Assembly (NCBI GenBank): GCA_017463125.1
Contig: JAFTPV010000014.1
Coordinates: 1 to 64,000, forward strand
DNA: 64,000 nucleotides
Direction of reading: 5' to 3'
Source: Clostridia bacterium
GTDB taxonomy: Bacteria > Bacillota > Clostridia > Oscillospirales > CAG-272
Part shown: one piece after another, positions 7,086-43,780 of the stretch
How the letters are laid out: every line of letters starts with the position of its first letter
How positions within the stretch are numbered: position 1 is the first letter of the stretch
Position numbers and translations under genes: made by a program
Notes under the pieces: generated by a model
Told to the model about the DNA's origin: nothing
What the model saw: only the letters and a program-made list of their open reading frames with translations
Databases searched by the model: none

Positions 7086-7108
7086 CGGACAGGCGTCTCG
7101 ACTGTCCG
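7086..7108. repeat. GGACAG...CTGTCC palindrome at a gene end
   Basis: CGGACAG and CTGTCCG arms around nine bases, seven bases beyond the stop of the minus-strand gene at 7116. It probably serves as its transcription end. The same arms recur at 21814-21836, 22421-22444, 28345-28469 and inside the two XRE elements. Confidence 0.75.
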
Positions 7109-7115
7109 TCGTATT

Positions 7116-7481
7116 TTATATATTCTTTAGTAGATACGATAAATTAATAAGTAGTATTTGAAAGATTATTATTACGATATAGAGTACAACCGTCGTTAAG
7201 AGAAGGTGGTTTTCGCTGTGATAATTTTTCGTTGACCACTCGTATATTTTGTCCTCGGAGTGATCCTTAAGGGCAAGGAGGTATATGAGCGCCGTGCCTC
7301 CCAGCAAAGTGCCGCAAGACCAAAAATGCCCATCTCTTAAGCTTACCATACCGCCGGCGGCAAGTATAAAGTTCGTTATCAGCGTTACGGTTTTCATTAT
7401 CACTCTGAAAATTTCGACGATTATAGGTAAAATACCATATCTTTTCTTTACCTCGCAAATCATCTCAAGTCTCTTTTTCAT
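7116..7481 (-). CDS. Small membrane protein, three-copy family (copy A)
   Basis: A 121-residue protein not matching a family I know. The N-terminus is basic (MKKRLEMICEVKKRYG), followed by hydrophobic stretches at about 18-45, 52-68 and 97-117. A conserved polar motif LKDHSEDKIYEW near 70 and YHSENHLLLTTV near 87 are shared with two paralogs in this window (21839-22198 and 27687-28052). The start is ATG with AGGAGGG upstream. It is a single-gene unit whose 5' UTR is a structured leader ending in an intrinsic terminator, so expression is probably set by read-through. The conserved His/Glu/Asp motif between membrane segments suggests a specific role, but none can be named. Confidence 0.88.
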   Translation of the reverse strand: MKKRLEMICEVKKRYGILPIIVEIFRVIMKTVTLITNFILAAGGMVSLRDGHFWSCGTLLGGTALIYLLALKDHSEDKIYEWSTKNYHSENHLLLTTVVLYIVIIIFQILLINLSYLLKNI

Positions 7482-7709
7482 CAGCCTACCCTCCTAAAAA
7501 ACAAAAAGTGCGACAACGTGAGTTGCCGCACCGAAAAACGCAAACTCAAATTGTCGCGAAACAAATTGAATGGAGGTATATACTTCCGTCCGATTGAATT
7601 TGCGTTTTTGCTAAATTCATCGGACGAAAGTATGCGCAAAAAAAAGTATAATTATTCCTATAAGGAAAAGATACCTCTAACTTTAATATTCAATTTGTTT
7701 CGCAGTGCT
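7482..7709 (-). promoter_or_regulatory. Structured attenuator leader A, with promoter just upstream
   Basis: The minus-strand promoter is TTGCAA (7738-7733), 17-bp spacer, TATAAT (7715-7710). The leader then shows: outer stem of 16 perfect pairs (7688-7703 with 7556-7571, arm gcgaaacaaattgaat); inner stem of 15 pairs (7619-7633 with 7580-7594); the inner loop (7596-7609, RNA aaaaacgcaaattc) complementary over 14 nt with one G-U to 7534-7547 (RNA gagtttgcgttttt), which would make a pseudoknot; and an intrinsic terminator (7508-7531 plus U-run) directly before the ribosome site. I know no riboswitch or T-box class with this layout. Three related leaders occur in the window. Confidence 0.85.
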
Positions 7710-7767
7710 ATTATACCATATAAAAATTTCTTTTGCAAGAGCTTTTGAAAAAATAATGTGAAGGCTT

Positions 7768-8016
7768 TTACTTTCCGTATTGCTTAACCTTTTCGATACA
7801 GGAAAGGCACATGCCGAGGTCTGAATTTATCTCGGTCTGCCTTTTGCACATTATGCAGATTTTGTCGCTCGCCTTTATATGTAGCGTGTCACCGTCCATA
7901 CTTATAAGAACCTTCGCGCTTTTGTCAAGTCCGAGTTTTTTTCTGAAATCCTTAGGCAAAACGACTCTTCCGAGAGCGTCAACCTCTTTTTCTATTCCGC
8001 TCGATCTTCTTTTCAT
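7768..8016 (-). CDS. AbrB/SpoVT-type DNA-binding protein with Cys4 tail
   Basis: 82 residues from the ATG at 8016, chosen because AAGGAG lies eight bases upstream; a longer frame to 8058 would read through the leader's terminator. Residues about 6-48 match the swapped-hairpin AbrB/MazE fold (EVDALGRVVLPKDFRKKLGL). The C-terminus has CIMCKRQ...GMCLSC, two CxxC pairs that could bind zinc. Probably a dimeric or tetrameric transition-state-type regulator. It is a single-gene unit behind a leader of the same family as the one at 7482-7709, so it is probably co-regulated with the small membrane protein genes. Confidence 0.88.
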   Translation of the reverse strand: MKRRSSGIEKEVDALGRVVLPKDFRKKLGLDKSAKVLISMDGDTLHIKASDKICIMCKRQTEINSDLGMCLSCIEKVKQYGK

Positions 8017-8256
8017 GGCACGGCTCCTTAAAACAAAAAGTGCGACAACCGAAGTCATCGCACCGAAAAACGCAAACTCCGATTGTTGCTACACAAAACT
8101 TAACAAGCACGGAGATAACTCACGCCTATCTGCCAAGTAGAATTTGCGTTTTTACCAAATTCATTATTGGCAGATATGCAAAGGGATAAAAACTCCCCAT
8201 AAAAAATAGAGAGTTTTCTCGCATAGCTTGTTAATTAAATTTTGTGTAGCGAGTAT
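8017..8256 (-). promoter_or_regulatory. Structured attenuator leader D, with promoter just upstream
   Basis: The promoter TTGACA (8285-8280), 17-bp spacer, TAGAAT (8262-8257) is nearly the same as that of leader B. Outer stem: 8226-8250 with 8088-8108 (gctacacaaaa/ttttgtgtagc plus ttaacaagc/gcttgttaa). Inner stem: tatctgccaa with ttggcagata (8167-8176 / 8127-8136). The loop 8140-8153 is complementary to 8066-8080. An intrinsic terminator at 8040-8063 with a U-run follows, then AAGGAG and the ATG. It differs from leaders A and C in stem sequence but keeps every pairing. Confidence 0.83.
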
Positions 8257-8345
8257 ATTCTACCACTTTTTTTGACGTTTGTCAATACATATATTTCACG
8301 GGCACCTTACCTATCCGCAAAAATAAACAAAAAATTACCTATCTA

Positions 8346-8374
8346 TTGAAAATAGTCGCAAAATATTATATAAT
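8346..8374 (+). promoter_or_regulatory. Promoter of the HD hydrolase operon
   Basis: TTGAAA (8346-8351), 17-bp spacer, TATAAT (8369-8374); the ATG lies 54 bases downstream. Confidence 0.82.
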
Positions 8375-21810: not shown

Positions 21811-21840
21811 AAACGGACAGTCTAGACGACTGTCCGTTTT
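21811..21840. terminator. Bidirectional terminator of the GGACAG palindrome family
   Basis: AAACGGACAGTC-TAGAC-GACTGTCCGTTT with four T on each strand. It overlaps the stop codon of the minus-strand gene at 21839 and ends plus-strand transcription from 16-21 kb. Confidence 0.88.
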
Positions 21841-22198
21841 ATTTTAGTAAATACGATAAATTTACAAGCAGTATTTGCAGGATTATTATAATGAGATAAA
21901 GTACAACCGTCGTTAAGAGAAGGTGGTTTTCGCTGTGATAATTTTTCGTTGACCATTCGTATATTTTGTCCTCGGAGTGATCCTTAAGGACAAGGAGGTA
22001 TATGAGCGTCGAGCCTCCGATAAGCGTCACGGCAGACCAATAATGAGCATCTCTTAAGCATATTACGCCGCCGAATGTGAGAAAAAAGTTGGCTATCAGC
22101 GTCACAGCTTTCATCACCACTCTGTAAACCTCGACGACGATGGGAAAATATCCAAACCTCTTTATCACCTCGCGTATAATTTCCCTCTTTGATTTCAT
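21839..22198 (-). CDS. Small membrane protein, three-copy family (copy B)
   Basis: 119 residues, paralog of the proteins at 7116 and 27687, and very similar to copy A in the second half (LKDHSEDKIYEWSTKNYHSENHLLLTTVVLY). Hydrophobic stretches lie at about 18-45, 52-68 and 97-115, after a basic N-terminus MKSKREIIREVIKRFG. ATG behind AGGAGG. It has its own promoter and a leader with an intrinsic terminator. Function unknown. Confidence 0.88.
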   Translation of the reverse strand: MKSKREIIREVIKRFGYFPIVVEVYRVVMKAVTLIANFFLTFGGVICLRDAHYWSAVTLIGGSTLIYLLVLKDHSEDKIYEWSTKNYHSENHLLLTTVVLYLIIIILQILLVNLSYLLK

Positions 22199-22380
22199 CA
22201 GTCTAACCTCCTAAAAAATAAAAAGTGCGCTCCAATGAAGGAACGCACCGAAAAAGCGATTCCCTCATTGTTGTCACACAATTATCTTCCCAACACAGAG
22301 TATAAGAATAAGAGAGAAACACCTTTTACCAAGGTATAGTTTCTCCATGTCGGGAATATTAATAATTATGTGACGGGTAT
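22199..22380 (-). promoter_or_regulatory. Structured attenuator leader B, with promoter just upstream
   Basis: Promoter TTGACA (22409-22404), 17-bp spacer, TAGAAT (22386-22381). The outer stem is 22362-22374 with 22273-22285 (13 pairs, one G-U), continued by tcccgaca/tgttggga. Inside is a hairpin ggagaaac/gtttctc with a terminal acctt-aaggt loop. The terminator is at 22225-22248 with a U-run. The pseudoknot loop seen in A, C and D is missing or replaced here, making this the divergent member. The promoter and the cggtgcg...cgcac terminator frame are shared. Confidence 0.75.
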
Positions 22381-22420
22381 ATTCTACCACTTTTTTTGAT
22401 ATTTGTCAATATATATTTTA

Positions 22421-22444
22421 CGGACAGTCGAGGACGACTGTCCG
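22421..22444. repeat. GGACAG palindrome
   Basis: cggacagtcg-agga-cgactgtccg, a 10-bp perfect stem, about 12 bases upstream of the leader B -35 box. Member of a dispersed palindrome family in this window. Confidence 0.8.
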
Positions 22445-22515
22445 TCGTATTTTATAAGTACAATACCAAAACAATAAAATATTTTACAAAATATAGAAAA
22501 ATTTTGAAAAAACTA

Positions 22516-27686: not shown

Positions 27687-28052
27687 TTATACGTTTTCAA
27701 GCAGCTTTGACAAAACGAGCAAGAGCGTTTGCGTGGCTACTATTACGCCGTAGAGGATAACCGTTGTAAGCAGGAGATTATCCGCGCTGTGATATTTTTT
27801 CACACACCACTCGTATATTTTGTCCTCGGAATGATCCTTTAAGGCAAGAAGGTATATAATAGCCGAGCCTGCAAGCAGGACAACCGCTGACCACATAACT
27901 CCCGCCCGCCAGAGTATCACACCGCCGAAGGTGAGAAAAAAGTTATACGTCAGTGCTATAACCTTCATTATAACTCTGTAAATTTCGATGATTATGGCAA
28001 AAATACCGTATCTTTTCTTTGCCTCGCGTAGCATCTCAAGCCTTTTTCTCAT
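27687..28052 (-). CDS. Small membrane protein, three-copy family (copy C)
   Basis: 121 residues, paralog of 7116 and 21839. It keeps LKDHSEDKIYEW and the YHSADNLLLTTV segment, and differs most in the middle hydrophobic stretches. Basic N-terminus MRKRLEMLREAKKRYG; ATG behind AGGAGG. It lies between infB and a dehydrogenase gene as a single minus-strand unit with its own leader and promoter. Three scattered single-gene copies with matching leaders suggest a regulon rather than an operon. Confidence 0.88.
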   Translation of the reverse strand: MRKRLEMLREAKKRYGIFAIIIEIYRVIMKVIALTYNFFLTFGGVILWRAGVMWSAVVLLAGSAIIYLLALKDHSEDKIYEWCVKKYHSADNLLLTTVILYGVIVATQTLLLVLSKLLENV

Positions 28053-28287
28053 TATCCATACCTCCTAAAAAACAAAAAGTGCGACAACGTGAGTTGCCGC
28101 ACCGAAAAATGCAAACTCCGTTTTGTCGCTGAACAAAATTAAATGAAGGTATTTTTACATACTCTTGCCAATGGAATTTGCATTTTTGCCAAAATCCTTA
28201 TTGGCAAGAGTATTGCAAAAAAAGGGTATAATTATCCCCGTAGAGAAAAAACACCTTAAAAAATATTTAATTTTGTTCAGCGAATTA
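28053..28287 (-). promoter_or_regulatory. Structured attenuator leader C, with promoter just upstream
   Basis: Promoter TTGCAA (28316-28311), 17-bp spacer, TATAAT (28293-28288). Outer stem: 17 perfect pairs, 28265-28281 with 28128-28144 (arm gctgaacaaaattaaat). Inner stem: 14 perfect pairs, 28200-28213 with 28159-28172. Loop 28173-28187 is complementary to 28105-28119 over 15 nt with one G-U. The terminator 28079-28102 is identical in sequence to that of leader A. Compared with A, both stems are changed on both sides and the loop pair has swapped cgc/gcg for tgc/gca, so pairing is conserved rather than sequence. Confidence 0.87.
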
Positions 28288-28344
28288 ATTATATCATACA
28301 CACCGCCATTTTGCAAGAGCTTTTGAAAAAAATATGGGGTCTTA

Positions 28345-28469
28345 CGGACAGTCGGGACGCCTGTCCCTACAGTTGCACGTTCAAATTGCGATAAGGATTT
28401 GTATCTGCTAACATATAGATTTCGTAAAATGTGTACGCTATTTGTAGGGACAGGCGTCCCGACTGTCCG
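28345..28469. repeat. 125-bp element with 27-bp perfect terminal inverted repeats
   Basis: The left arm 28345-28371 starts cggacagtcgggacgcctgt; the right arm 28443-28469 is its exact reverse complement. 71 bases lie between and contain no gene. It is a MITE-like or long-hairpin element and the largest member of the GGACAG/CTGTCC palindrome family. Confidence 0.88.
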
Positions 28470-28650
28470 TTTTATTTTTACATAAAAGCCTCGGATGAGT
28501 ATGTTCGAGAGTCGGCGTCATCTTTGTCCGCAGAGCCGTCGGCGAGGTAGGAGAAATTGTCGGGTGAAATATTTTTATGTACAATTTTATACTTGATTTG
28601 TTACAATTTTATACAAAATAAAAATTTTAGTACATTTTTTTGATTTTTCC

Positions 28651-42860: not shown

Positions 42861-43122
42861 AAACGCAAGCTCCATTTGTCGCGGAACAAAAGGAAAAAGC
42901 CTTCTCTTATGTTGGCACACAAAAACAAAAGCGGCGCCCGTTTTTTTGGGCGCTGTGATATTATTAGATACGGACAGGCGGTCTCGCTTCGGCTCGGTCA
43001 CAGAACGGCTCTGGCGTTATTAACGCCGTTCATTACCGTTTTGTCGCTTCGCTACCTCGACTGTCCGAGCCTTGTATAATAAAATTTTACCTAAATCAAT
43101 TCAATTTTCTAGGAGTTTCGAT
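42861..43122 (+). ncRNA. Element G: duplicated 262-bp XRE-associated element, candidate small RNA
   Basis: Nearly identical over 262 bp to element F (43519-43780). It contains aaacgcaagctccatttgtc, gcggaacaaaagg, a hairpin with seven-T loop (ggcgccc/gggcgc) and GGACAG...CTGTCC arms enclosing gcgttattaacgc. A consensus promoter upstream at 42741-42769 would transcribe it on the plus strand. Reading frames differ between copies, so an RNA product is more likely than a peptide. Its end overlaps the last ~27 bases of XRE2. On the opposite strand the hairpin is a T-run terminator for XRE2. Confidence 0.65.
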
Positions 43123-43518: not shown

Positions 43519-43780
43519 AAACGCAAGCTCCATTTGTCGCGGAACAAAAGGAAAAAGCCTTCTCTTATGTTGGCACACAAAAACAAAAGCGGCGCCCGTT
43601 TTTTTGGGCGCTGTGATATTATTAGATACGGACAGTAGGTCTCGCTTCGGCTCGGTCACAGAACGGCTCTGGCGTTATTAACGCCATTCACTACCGTTTT
43701 GTCGCTTCGCTACCTCGACTGTCCAAGCCTTGTATAATAAAATTTTACCTAAATCAATTCAATTTTCTAGGGGTTTCGAT
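43519..43780 (+). ncRNA. Element F: duplicated 262-bp XRE-associated element, candidate small RNA
   Basis: Same length and about 97% the same by eye as element G; differences cluster around the GGACAG arm and gccgttcattacc/gccattcactacc. Its far end encodes, on the minus strand, IETPRKLN and a stop, the C-terminal remnant of a third XRE gene. The array therefore reads XRE remnant - F - XRE2 - G - XRE1. Its first ~30 nt are complementary to the conserved segment of leaders A, C and D. Confidence 0.65.

Follow-up and report, generated by a model that had tools for sequence, protein, structure and literature searches.

A family of structured leader RNAs in Clostridia with a candidate pseudoknot-controlled antiterminator

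Terminating riboswitches and attenuators follow a common plan, in which a 5′ leader carries a structured core, an intrinsic terminator and a mutually exclusive antiterminator, with the gene placed directly after. T-box leaders (RF00230) are multi-stem RNAs built around the same terminator/antiterminator choice, and in Clostridia a single genome can carry several tandem or c-di-GMP riboswitches, placed ahead of genes for secreted or surface proteins. Another candidate, the SLH motif, is described by Stav et al. 2019 (PMC6429828) as a riboswitch candidate of Clostridia that lies upstream of surface-protein genes, was first found in Thermovirga lienii (Synergistota) and is known from 80 unique examples, with ∼60% of its genes encoding SLH domains. 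The leaders reported here come from a 64,000-nucleotide stretch of a Clostridia bacterium genome (assembly GCA_017463125.1, contig JAFTPV010000014.1, positions 1 to 64,000; the window), which carries four of them, A to D, on the minus strand. They share the plan of terminating riboswitches and attenuators, and the multi-stem layout and terminator/antiterminator choice of the T-box, and, like the tandem and c-di-GMP riboswitches, they recur within a genome ahead of genes for secreted or surface proteins. Unlike the terminating riboswitches and attenuators, they match no Rfam class, a 14-16 bp loop-tail pseudoknot (PK) gates their core together with a rival hairpin, and the tail of the PK doubles as the antiterminator strand. 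From the tandem and c-di-GMP riboswitches they differ in the missing Rfam match and in a genome of origin without a GGDEF match.

Rfam 15 run over the whole window at gathering thresholds returned five tRNAs and no leader match, in agreement with the initial annotation, which had recognized no known class. Ranking by E-value over positions 7400-8350 (leaders A and B) yielded only rows far below gathering, and none of the 35 related loci (17 scored at E ≤ 0.05, 18 class-level loci at gathering) gave a match at its leader. The T-box model matched no leader, and the same scan found a T-box elsewhere (L257:177-414). At one locus a Gut-1 RNA (RF01706, 72.7 bits) lies upstream of the leader and outside it (L314:2892-2963), and the opposite strand bears another copy that scores below threshold; the element looks like a GTGAAAT hairpin repeat. 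No description of the leader RNA was found in the full-text literature searched, a scope outside which subscription papers, figures and supplements fall, nor in the searched text of PMC11109978, PMC8040213, PMC8632094, PMC6429828 and PMC7266159, and within that scope this large family of gut-type Clostridia is apparently undescribed. Among published RNAs the SLH motif comes closest; it is one that, as far as the searched text describes it, shares with the leaders both Clostridia and surface-protein genes. It is set apart by gene content alone, SLH domains occurring in 2 of 94 cluster representatives behind leaders as against ∼60% of SLH-motif genes, a contrast that is only suggestive because the genome samples differ and representatives, not all genes, were counted. 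The two may be identical or akin, and this lowers the claim to novelty.

All four leaders follow the order promoter, outer stem, inner hairpin, terminator, Shine-Dalgarno sequence and gene that the initial annotation had set out. In leader A, the −35 box TTGCAA (7733-7738) and −10 box TATAAT (7710-7715), supported by the family promoter profile, precede a structured RNA of the long type (7498-7704) that scores 198.3 bits with R1, a covariance model built from nine long copies; the match holds by construction, since A is among those nine. The outer stem P1 pairs 7688-7703 with 7556-7571, the 5′ strand of P2 (7671-7677) pairs with 7573-7579, and the P3 stem-loop (7580-7633, stem 7619-7633 with 7580-7594) bears the pseudoknot loop strand GCAAAAACGCAAATTCAA (7594-7611) and the PK rival P4, a hairpin in the P3 loop (7596-7618) supported by the family test. 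The partner of the loop strand is the tail TTGAGTTTGCGTTTTTC (7533-7549), which can form either the PK with the P3 loop or an antiterminator (AT) with the terminator 5′ arm and loop. The terminator hairpin (7508-7531, 5′ arm 7522-7531), its T-run (7496-7507) and the Shine-Dalgarno AGGAGG (7490-7495) then lead to a gene (7116-7481) for a 121-aa membrane protein, present in five copies in the genome, whose product has no Pfam or NCBIfam match over the curated cut-off.

The other three leaders, likewise on the minus strand, are laid out in the same way. Leader B is of the long type (8030-8251, R1 172.5 bits, within the R1 training set), with promoter boxes at 8280-8285 (−35) and 8257-8262 (−10), P4 at 8140-8162, the PK loop at 8139-8156, the tail at 8065-8081 and the terminator at 8040-8063; its gene (7768-8016) encodes an 82-aa AbrB/MazE-type protein (PF04014, E 3.6e-07) that ends in a CxxC...CxxC tail. 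Leader C is of the short type (22215-22375), matches R1 at 53.3 bits (E 2.1e-8) from outside the R1 training set and scores 120.9 bits with the short-type model R2, in whose training set it stands. Its promoter boxes are at 22404-22409 and 22381-22386, P4 at 22314-22345, the PK loop at 22314-22330, the tail at 22250-22266 and the terminator at 22225-22248, before a gene (21839-22198) for a 119-aa paralogue of the membrane protein. Leader D, of the long type (28069-28282, R1 218.6 bits, within the training set), has its promoter boxes at 28311-28316 and 28288-28293, P1 formed by 28265-28282 with 28127-28144, P4 at 28173-28197, the PK loop at 28173-28190, the tail at 28104-28120 and the terminator at 28079-28102, followed by a gene (27687-28052) for a 121-aa paralogue. 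The complementarity of 14-15 nt between the inner loop and the segment before the terminator had been reported for A, C and D; it exists, and it extends to B. In C, the shorter subtype, this pairing requires a bulge. Leader D folds at −82.6 kcal/mol as compared to −40.0 (sd 4.1) for dinucleotide shuffles (z = −10.4, 0/200 as good), and the short copy L023, on contig C13 of the same genome, folds with z = −7.0.

A short palindromic, REP-like repeat, ACGGACAGTCG with its reverse, has 10 matches in the window (≤1 mismatch) as compared to 0.73 expected, and seven of the ten adjoin the leader-gene units A, C and D. Its positions include 7099-7109, 21813-21837, 22420-22445 and 28344-28354, with further matches at 28460-28470, 42970-42980, 43058-43068 and 43628-43638.

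Pattern searches of the genome from which the window comes (1.9 Mb, 28 contigs) found further copies ahead of other genes, the terminator pattern occurring 6 times as against 0 for the reversed pattern. R1 recovered 14 clear copies there at E ≤ 2.1e-8, 12 of them of the long type (207-232 nt) and 2 of the short type (159 and 161 nt); nine had trained the model and five, leader C among them, had not. Three extra R1 rows at E 0.01-0.09, one of them leader D on the opposite strand, are not counted as copies. R1 also matched 38 of 59 relatives, the number per genome ranging from 0 to 15 within a single genus. A second model, R2, built from 26 short copies, matched 85/247 genomes (34%) and 57/136 genera across the order, and 89/392 genomes (23%) and 53/220 genera across the class. 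A phylum-wide draw with R2 gave 2/398 genomes, both in the window's own order; the restriction to that order which this draw had suggested was overturned by the class draw. The order, phylum and class counts are lower bounds, with 11 or 7 candidates scored per genome, and the picture beyond the class comes from the single phylum draw and R2 alone, kinship not being listed for every genome. Fuller scoring of six copy-rich genomes gave 18, 30, 28, 16, 13 and 10 matches. A pattern scan gave at least 80 named records, assigned to Clostridia, Oscillospiraceae, Clostridiales, Firmicutes and one Christensenella, and the matches listed were nearly all metagenome assemblies, many from ruminants. Viral contigs held no exact pattern match, and blastn of leader D against phages and plasmids found none. 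Leaders A-D belong to a single RNA family.

For comparative work, 80 regions were taken from part of the R1 hits in relatives, and 39 usable ones from part of the class hits. The 231 distinct leaders were used in part for each test: 214 for the promoter, 213 for P4, 223 for folding and 220 for blocked-strand energies. A non-redundant set of 125 was reached from 178 leaders, of which 142 were usable, by removing near-duplicates, and a class-level set, drawn from other members of the class, had 42 usable leaders of 45. Rows with short or missing pieces were left out of the permutation tests, which covered 88/93 rows for the PK and 92/93 and 85/85 for the AT and which ignore relatedness. Selection of the A3 rows used a pattern in which part of the terminator loop is fixed; A4, chosen independently of the terminator pattern, is therefore the fairer set.

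A typical copy consists of a sigma-70-type promoter, a long outer stem, the loop-tail PK, an intrinsic terminator, a ribosome site and a gene. The covariation check suggested in the initial annotation bears this structure out: on a 93-row alignment, 92.2% of cells are paired as compared to 72.0% after shuffling and 34-51% with slid partners, and double changes occur in 43 of 49 pairs. Paired cells reach 95% in the outer stem P1, 81-85% in the pairs of P2, 91% in P3 and 99% in the terminator helix, and in P3 all 13 pairs have changed on both sides. Because this alignment was fitted to the model, the weight lies on the slid and permuted controls. An RNAalifold pairing of the 5′ strand GGUAU with the first AUACC, obtained on eleven rows, gave way to a pairing with the second AUACC, for which 93 rows show covariation. 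Outside the long stems, conserved sequence is found as GACAA after P1, GGGAUA...UAUACCC and GGYAAAA. A column covariation scan, in whose ranking some non-pairing columns also appear, points to a possible base triple formed by a pair of P1 with the base that follows P1; part of that signal may come from an AT extension (see below).

The helix that joins the P3 loop (GGYAAAAAYGC...) to the tail directly before the terminator is 14-16 bp long. With their own tails, loops pair at −18.3 kcal/mol as compared to −15.9 (sd 0.215) with permuted tails (0/2000 as good, 88 of 93 rows usable), and the structure count is 94.4% paired, 91.7% shuffled and 39-73% slid. In the short type (26 rows) the energies are −18.1 and −11.8 (0/5000 as good), and the z value is −15.1 in the 125 non-redundant and −8.4 in the 42 class-level leaders. 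Tails are alike across copies, so that only 13 loops find the best of the 88 tails in their own, a median of 16 others being better. Beyond a bulged U, the PK helix ends in a G-C pair that covaries in A4 and is nearly invariant in A3. The same loop strand can be held locally by P4, the 5′ strand of which resembles the tail. P4 covaries as well, with 0/1000 permutations as good both for 159 long leaders and for 54 short ones and z values of −9.1 (125 leaders) and −9.5 (42 class-level leaders); for the P4 test and the class-level set, the loop was picked by best match to its own tail, a choice that favours the PK.

Column covariation further revealed that the tail pairs with the 5′ arm and loop of the terminator, an antiterminator that the initial annotation did not contain. 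Its structure count is 91.4% paired, 88.8% shuffled and 25-60% slid, and on A4 rows its energy is −10.63 kcal/mol as compared to −8.28 (sd 0.229), with 0/2000 permutations as good. Loop, tail and arm sequences of the short type differ widely from those of the long type and the complementarities are kept: short-type AT pairs at −13.5 as against −9.4 when permuted (26 rows, 0/5000 as good), with 10.1 of its 11.7 tail bases on average also belonging to the PK, and the control pairing of loop with arm was equalled in 435/5000 permutations. The z values are −8.0 and −8.1 for AT and −18.9 and −15.8 for the terminator (T) in the 125 and the 42 class-level leaders, respectively. Controls gave z values of −1.2, −0.5, 0.3 and −0.2 at class level; in the 125 leaders three stood at 0.6, 1.2 and 0.0 and two drifted, to −3.8 for the reversed loop with the tail and to −1.9 for the P2a region with the tail, for which reason small z values mean little. 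In the folds, AT can be extended by pairing of the stretch after P1 with the terminator 3′ arm, an extension supported in A4 (0/5000), the short set (1/5000) and the 125 leaders (z −6.2), weak in A3 (193/5000) and unsupported in the class-level set (1019/4000).

Folding agrees with a choice between AT and T. In transcripts cut before the terminator 3′ arm, the minimum-energy fold has AT in 205 of 223, and in full-length transcripts, folded by a program without pseudoknots, T is present in 98 of 223. Blocking the tail, as the PK would, gives T a mean of −16.2 kcal/mol, and blocking the 3′ arm gives AT a mean of −12.4; T is the more stable in 197/220 modules, by a mean difference of 3.9 kcal/mol, and is chosen by 84/220 when nothing is blocked. 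On paper, these blocked-strand energies indicate that availability of the tail can flip the choice between AT and T, in calculations that ignore pseudoknot entropy and kinetics. As in a transcription attenuator, an intrinsic terminator lies between promoter and gene, and covariation together with predicted folds indicates that a mutually exclusive antiterminator is present. The description of these leaders as structured attenuators of no known class is thereby sustained by Rfam 15, by covariation and by the covarying antiterminator, and their read-through is probably regulated.

Leaders A-D very probably belong to one family of cis-acting transcription attenuators in which the PK leads to OFF, and P4 with AT leads to ON. 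Comparative evidence shows the helices and their mutual exclusion, as it does the promoter and the placement of the gene. RNA polymerase would start at the sigma-70-type promoter just ahead of P1, which would enclose P2 and P3 in the long type, or one long stem in the short type, with the loop bearing strand L (GGUAAAAAYGC...). After the P1 domain, the transcript would present in turn the tail S, the terminator 5′ arm T5 and the 3′ arm T3. L would be held in P4 or taken by S to form the PK, S would pair with L or with T5 (AT), and T5 with S or with T3 (T), so that P4, PK, AT and T would stand in a row, each incompatible with the helix next to it. Formation of the PK would thus leave T to form and terminate transcription (OFF), and persistence of P4 would allow AT and read-through into the gene (ON). 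The 5′ end of S emerges first and could dock on the last bases of L, so that strand exchange into P4 could yield the PK while T5 has yet to be transcribed. Expression would then be set by whatever favours or blocks the exchange, be it a small molecule, a protein or polymerase speed. We infer that read-through is regulated, and likewise the direction of the switch, the exchange route and the existence of an effector. Since the covarying AT excludes both PK and T, it supplies the switching part that had been absent from the initial annotation.

Of the 217 leaders for which sufficient sequence was at hand, 172 have a Shine-Dalgarno sequence and an ORF within 100 nt downstream, at a median gap of 18 nt; for the 45 without a clear pair, the simple ORF rule is perhaps partly responsible. 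The 171 downstream proteins fall into 99 clusters, of which the membrane protein and the AbrB-type protein account for two. The family is therefore not confined to these genes, as had been supposed, and the four-gene regulon that had been proposed, whose units do share one leader family, is part of something far wider. Five short or truncated cluster representatives were excluded from the scans with Pfam, PADLOC and PHROGs, which covered the other 94 of the 99. Pfam identified BspA-type leucine-rich repeats (2), Listeria-Bacteroides repeats (4), SLH domains (2), zinc ribbons (4), an AMP-binding enzyme and GDSL lipases, and PADLOC and PHROGs gave no common theme on the 94, the PADLOC families having one member each. 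Lipobox signals were detected in 51/197 downstream proteins as compared to 16/296 other ORFs (L079-L158 loci; Fisher p 1.3e-10), a ratio that is approximate because the length floor was 120 aa for control ORFs and 45 aa for downstream proteins. By these predicted signals the downstream genes are diverse and enriched in lipoproteins, and leader-controlled genes often seem to encode cell-surface proteins.

Several individual gene arrangements were also observed. At L037 (G000:C3:6765-7415), an AbrB-type gene and a diverged membrane protein gene stand in tandem behind one leader, which makes the neighbours behind A and B in the window related cargo and suggests that the AbrB-type and membrane proteins work together. 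A small Cys-rich family (DITGxELTPGxPxVCLGNGEQGFECCCDECDYxLxCFPEFD), a 12-member cluster, is encoded by the first ORF after the leader in L218, L131, L090, L061, L083 and others, with a diverged form at L318. The first ORFs after short-type leaders at L252, L267, L282 and L100 encode four related proteins, which resemble small nucleotide-binding, SLOG-like proteins. Two tandem leaders on one strand within ∼200 nt occur at L136, L100, L120, L087, L252, L262, L266 (one of the two partial) and L273, an arrangement as in tandem riboswitches.

TTGACA and TGTGnTATAAT recur in the promoters at a constant spacing from P1, and both boxes are in place in 79% of 214 leaders as compared to 5.9% after shuffling. 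Of 17 leader pairs with at least 90% identity, 12 precede unrelated genes. Among the 14 closest pairs with unrelated genes, similarity stops within 12 nt of the T-run end in 12 and runs 32 and 41 nt beyond it in the other two, and it begins no more than 57 nt before P1 in 10 of the 14. From these limits, the promoter-switch-terminator unit seems to have been exchanged between loci, or else the genes behind it were replaced; some pairs may be one locus with its gene replaced, since whole-locus comparison found further shared flanking stretches in 3 of 11 pairs. On the wider reading set out at the end, promoter, switch and terminator appear to have spread as one module to unrelated genes.

As to what would drive the attenuator, a ligand-binding riboswitch class is a credible though still tentative answer: the P1/P2/P3/PK core would be the aptamer, and a ligand would stabilise the PK (OFF) or P4 (ON). 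The core resembles an aptamer and precedes a switching expression platform, and the whole lies 5′ of genes in 172/217 leaders, which is consistent with this, as are the 10-30 copies in the six copy-rich genomes, the stretches conserved outside the long stems (GACAA, GGGAUA...UAUACCC, GGYAAAA) and 11 leader pairs lying within 450 nt of each other on the same strand (the A/B pair of the window has an intervening gene). However, the PK is a long plain helix rather than a compact pocket, the 99 protein clusters give no clue to a ligand, and no pathway connects the downstream genes, which would be unusual for a metabolite riboswitch. Searched at E ≤ 1e-10, GGDEF was absent from G000, the window's own genome (92% complete, 14 leader matches), and from G272 (7 leader matches), and c-di-GMP is unlikely as the ligand; GGDEF is present in 134/247 genomes of the order, and the absence speaks for G000 and G272 only.

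Control by an RNA-binding or antitermination protein that keeps P4 open or shut is unlikely. The patchy copy number, 0 to 15 per genome in one genus, could track a partner gene, but a LoaP-like second NusG-type protein, the one candidate tested, was not found: each of 20 genomes, 10 with and 10 without leader matches, has one NusG match, and LoaP-type processive antitermination was rejected. Doubtful to a similar degree is a ligand-free kinetic sensor, in which polymerase speed or pausing would choose between strand exchange (PK, then T) and AT. The fairly close energies of AT and T (mean difference 3.9 kcal/mol) and a strand order that suits a race, with the first-docking tail end made first, accord with it, but the sequence conservation of the core and the P2a hairpin would be left unexplained. 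That the leader is a stable small RNA merely located before genes, with an ordinary end for a terminator, is highly improbable in spite of its own promoter and terminator and the near-identical leaders before unrelated genes (12/17 pairs at ≥90% identity), given that the pairing of tail with terminator 5′ arm is kept while both sequences change, which an unregulated end would not need, and that a Shine-Dalgarno sequence and ORF follow in 172/217.

Beyond the attenuator reading of A-D, a wider claim, still tentative and just short of probable, is that the leaders represent a new, class-wide family of switching RNAs, with up to ∼30 copies per genome, by which a large and fast-changing set of cell-surface proteins would be placed under one signal through four exclusive helices. 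A strand that covaries with two partners would make the switch directly testable by paired mutations, for which the many natural copies are a ready library. If true, this would bring to light a regulon of surface and secreted proteins hitherto hidden in bacteria of the gut and rumen, and perhaps a new signal as well.
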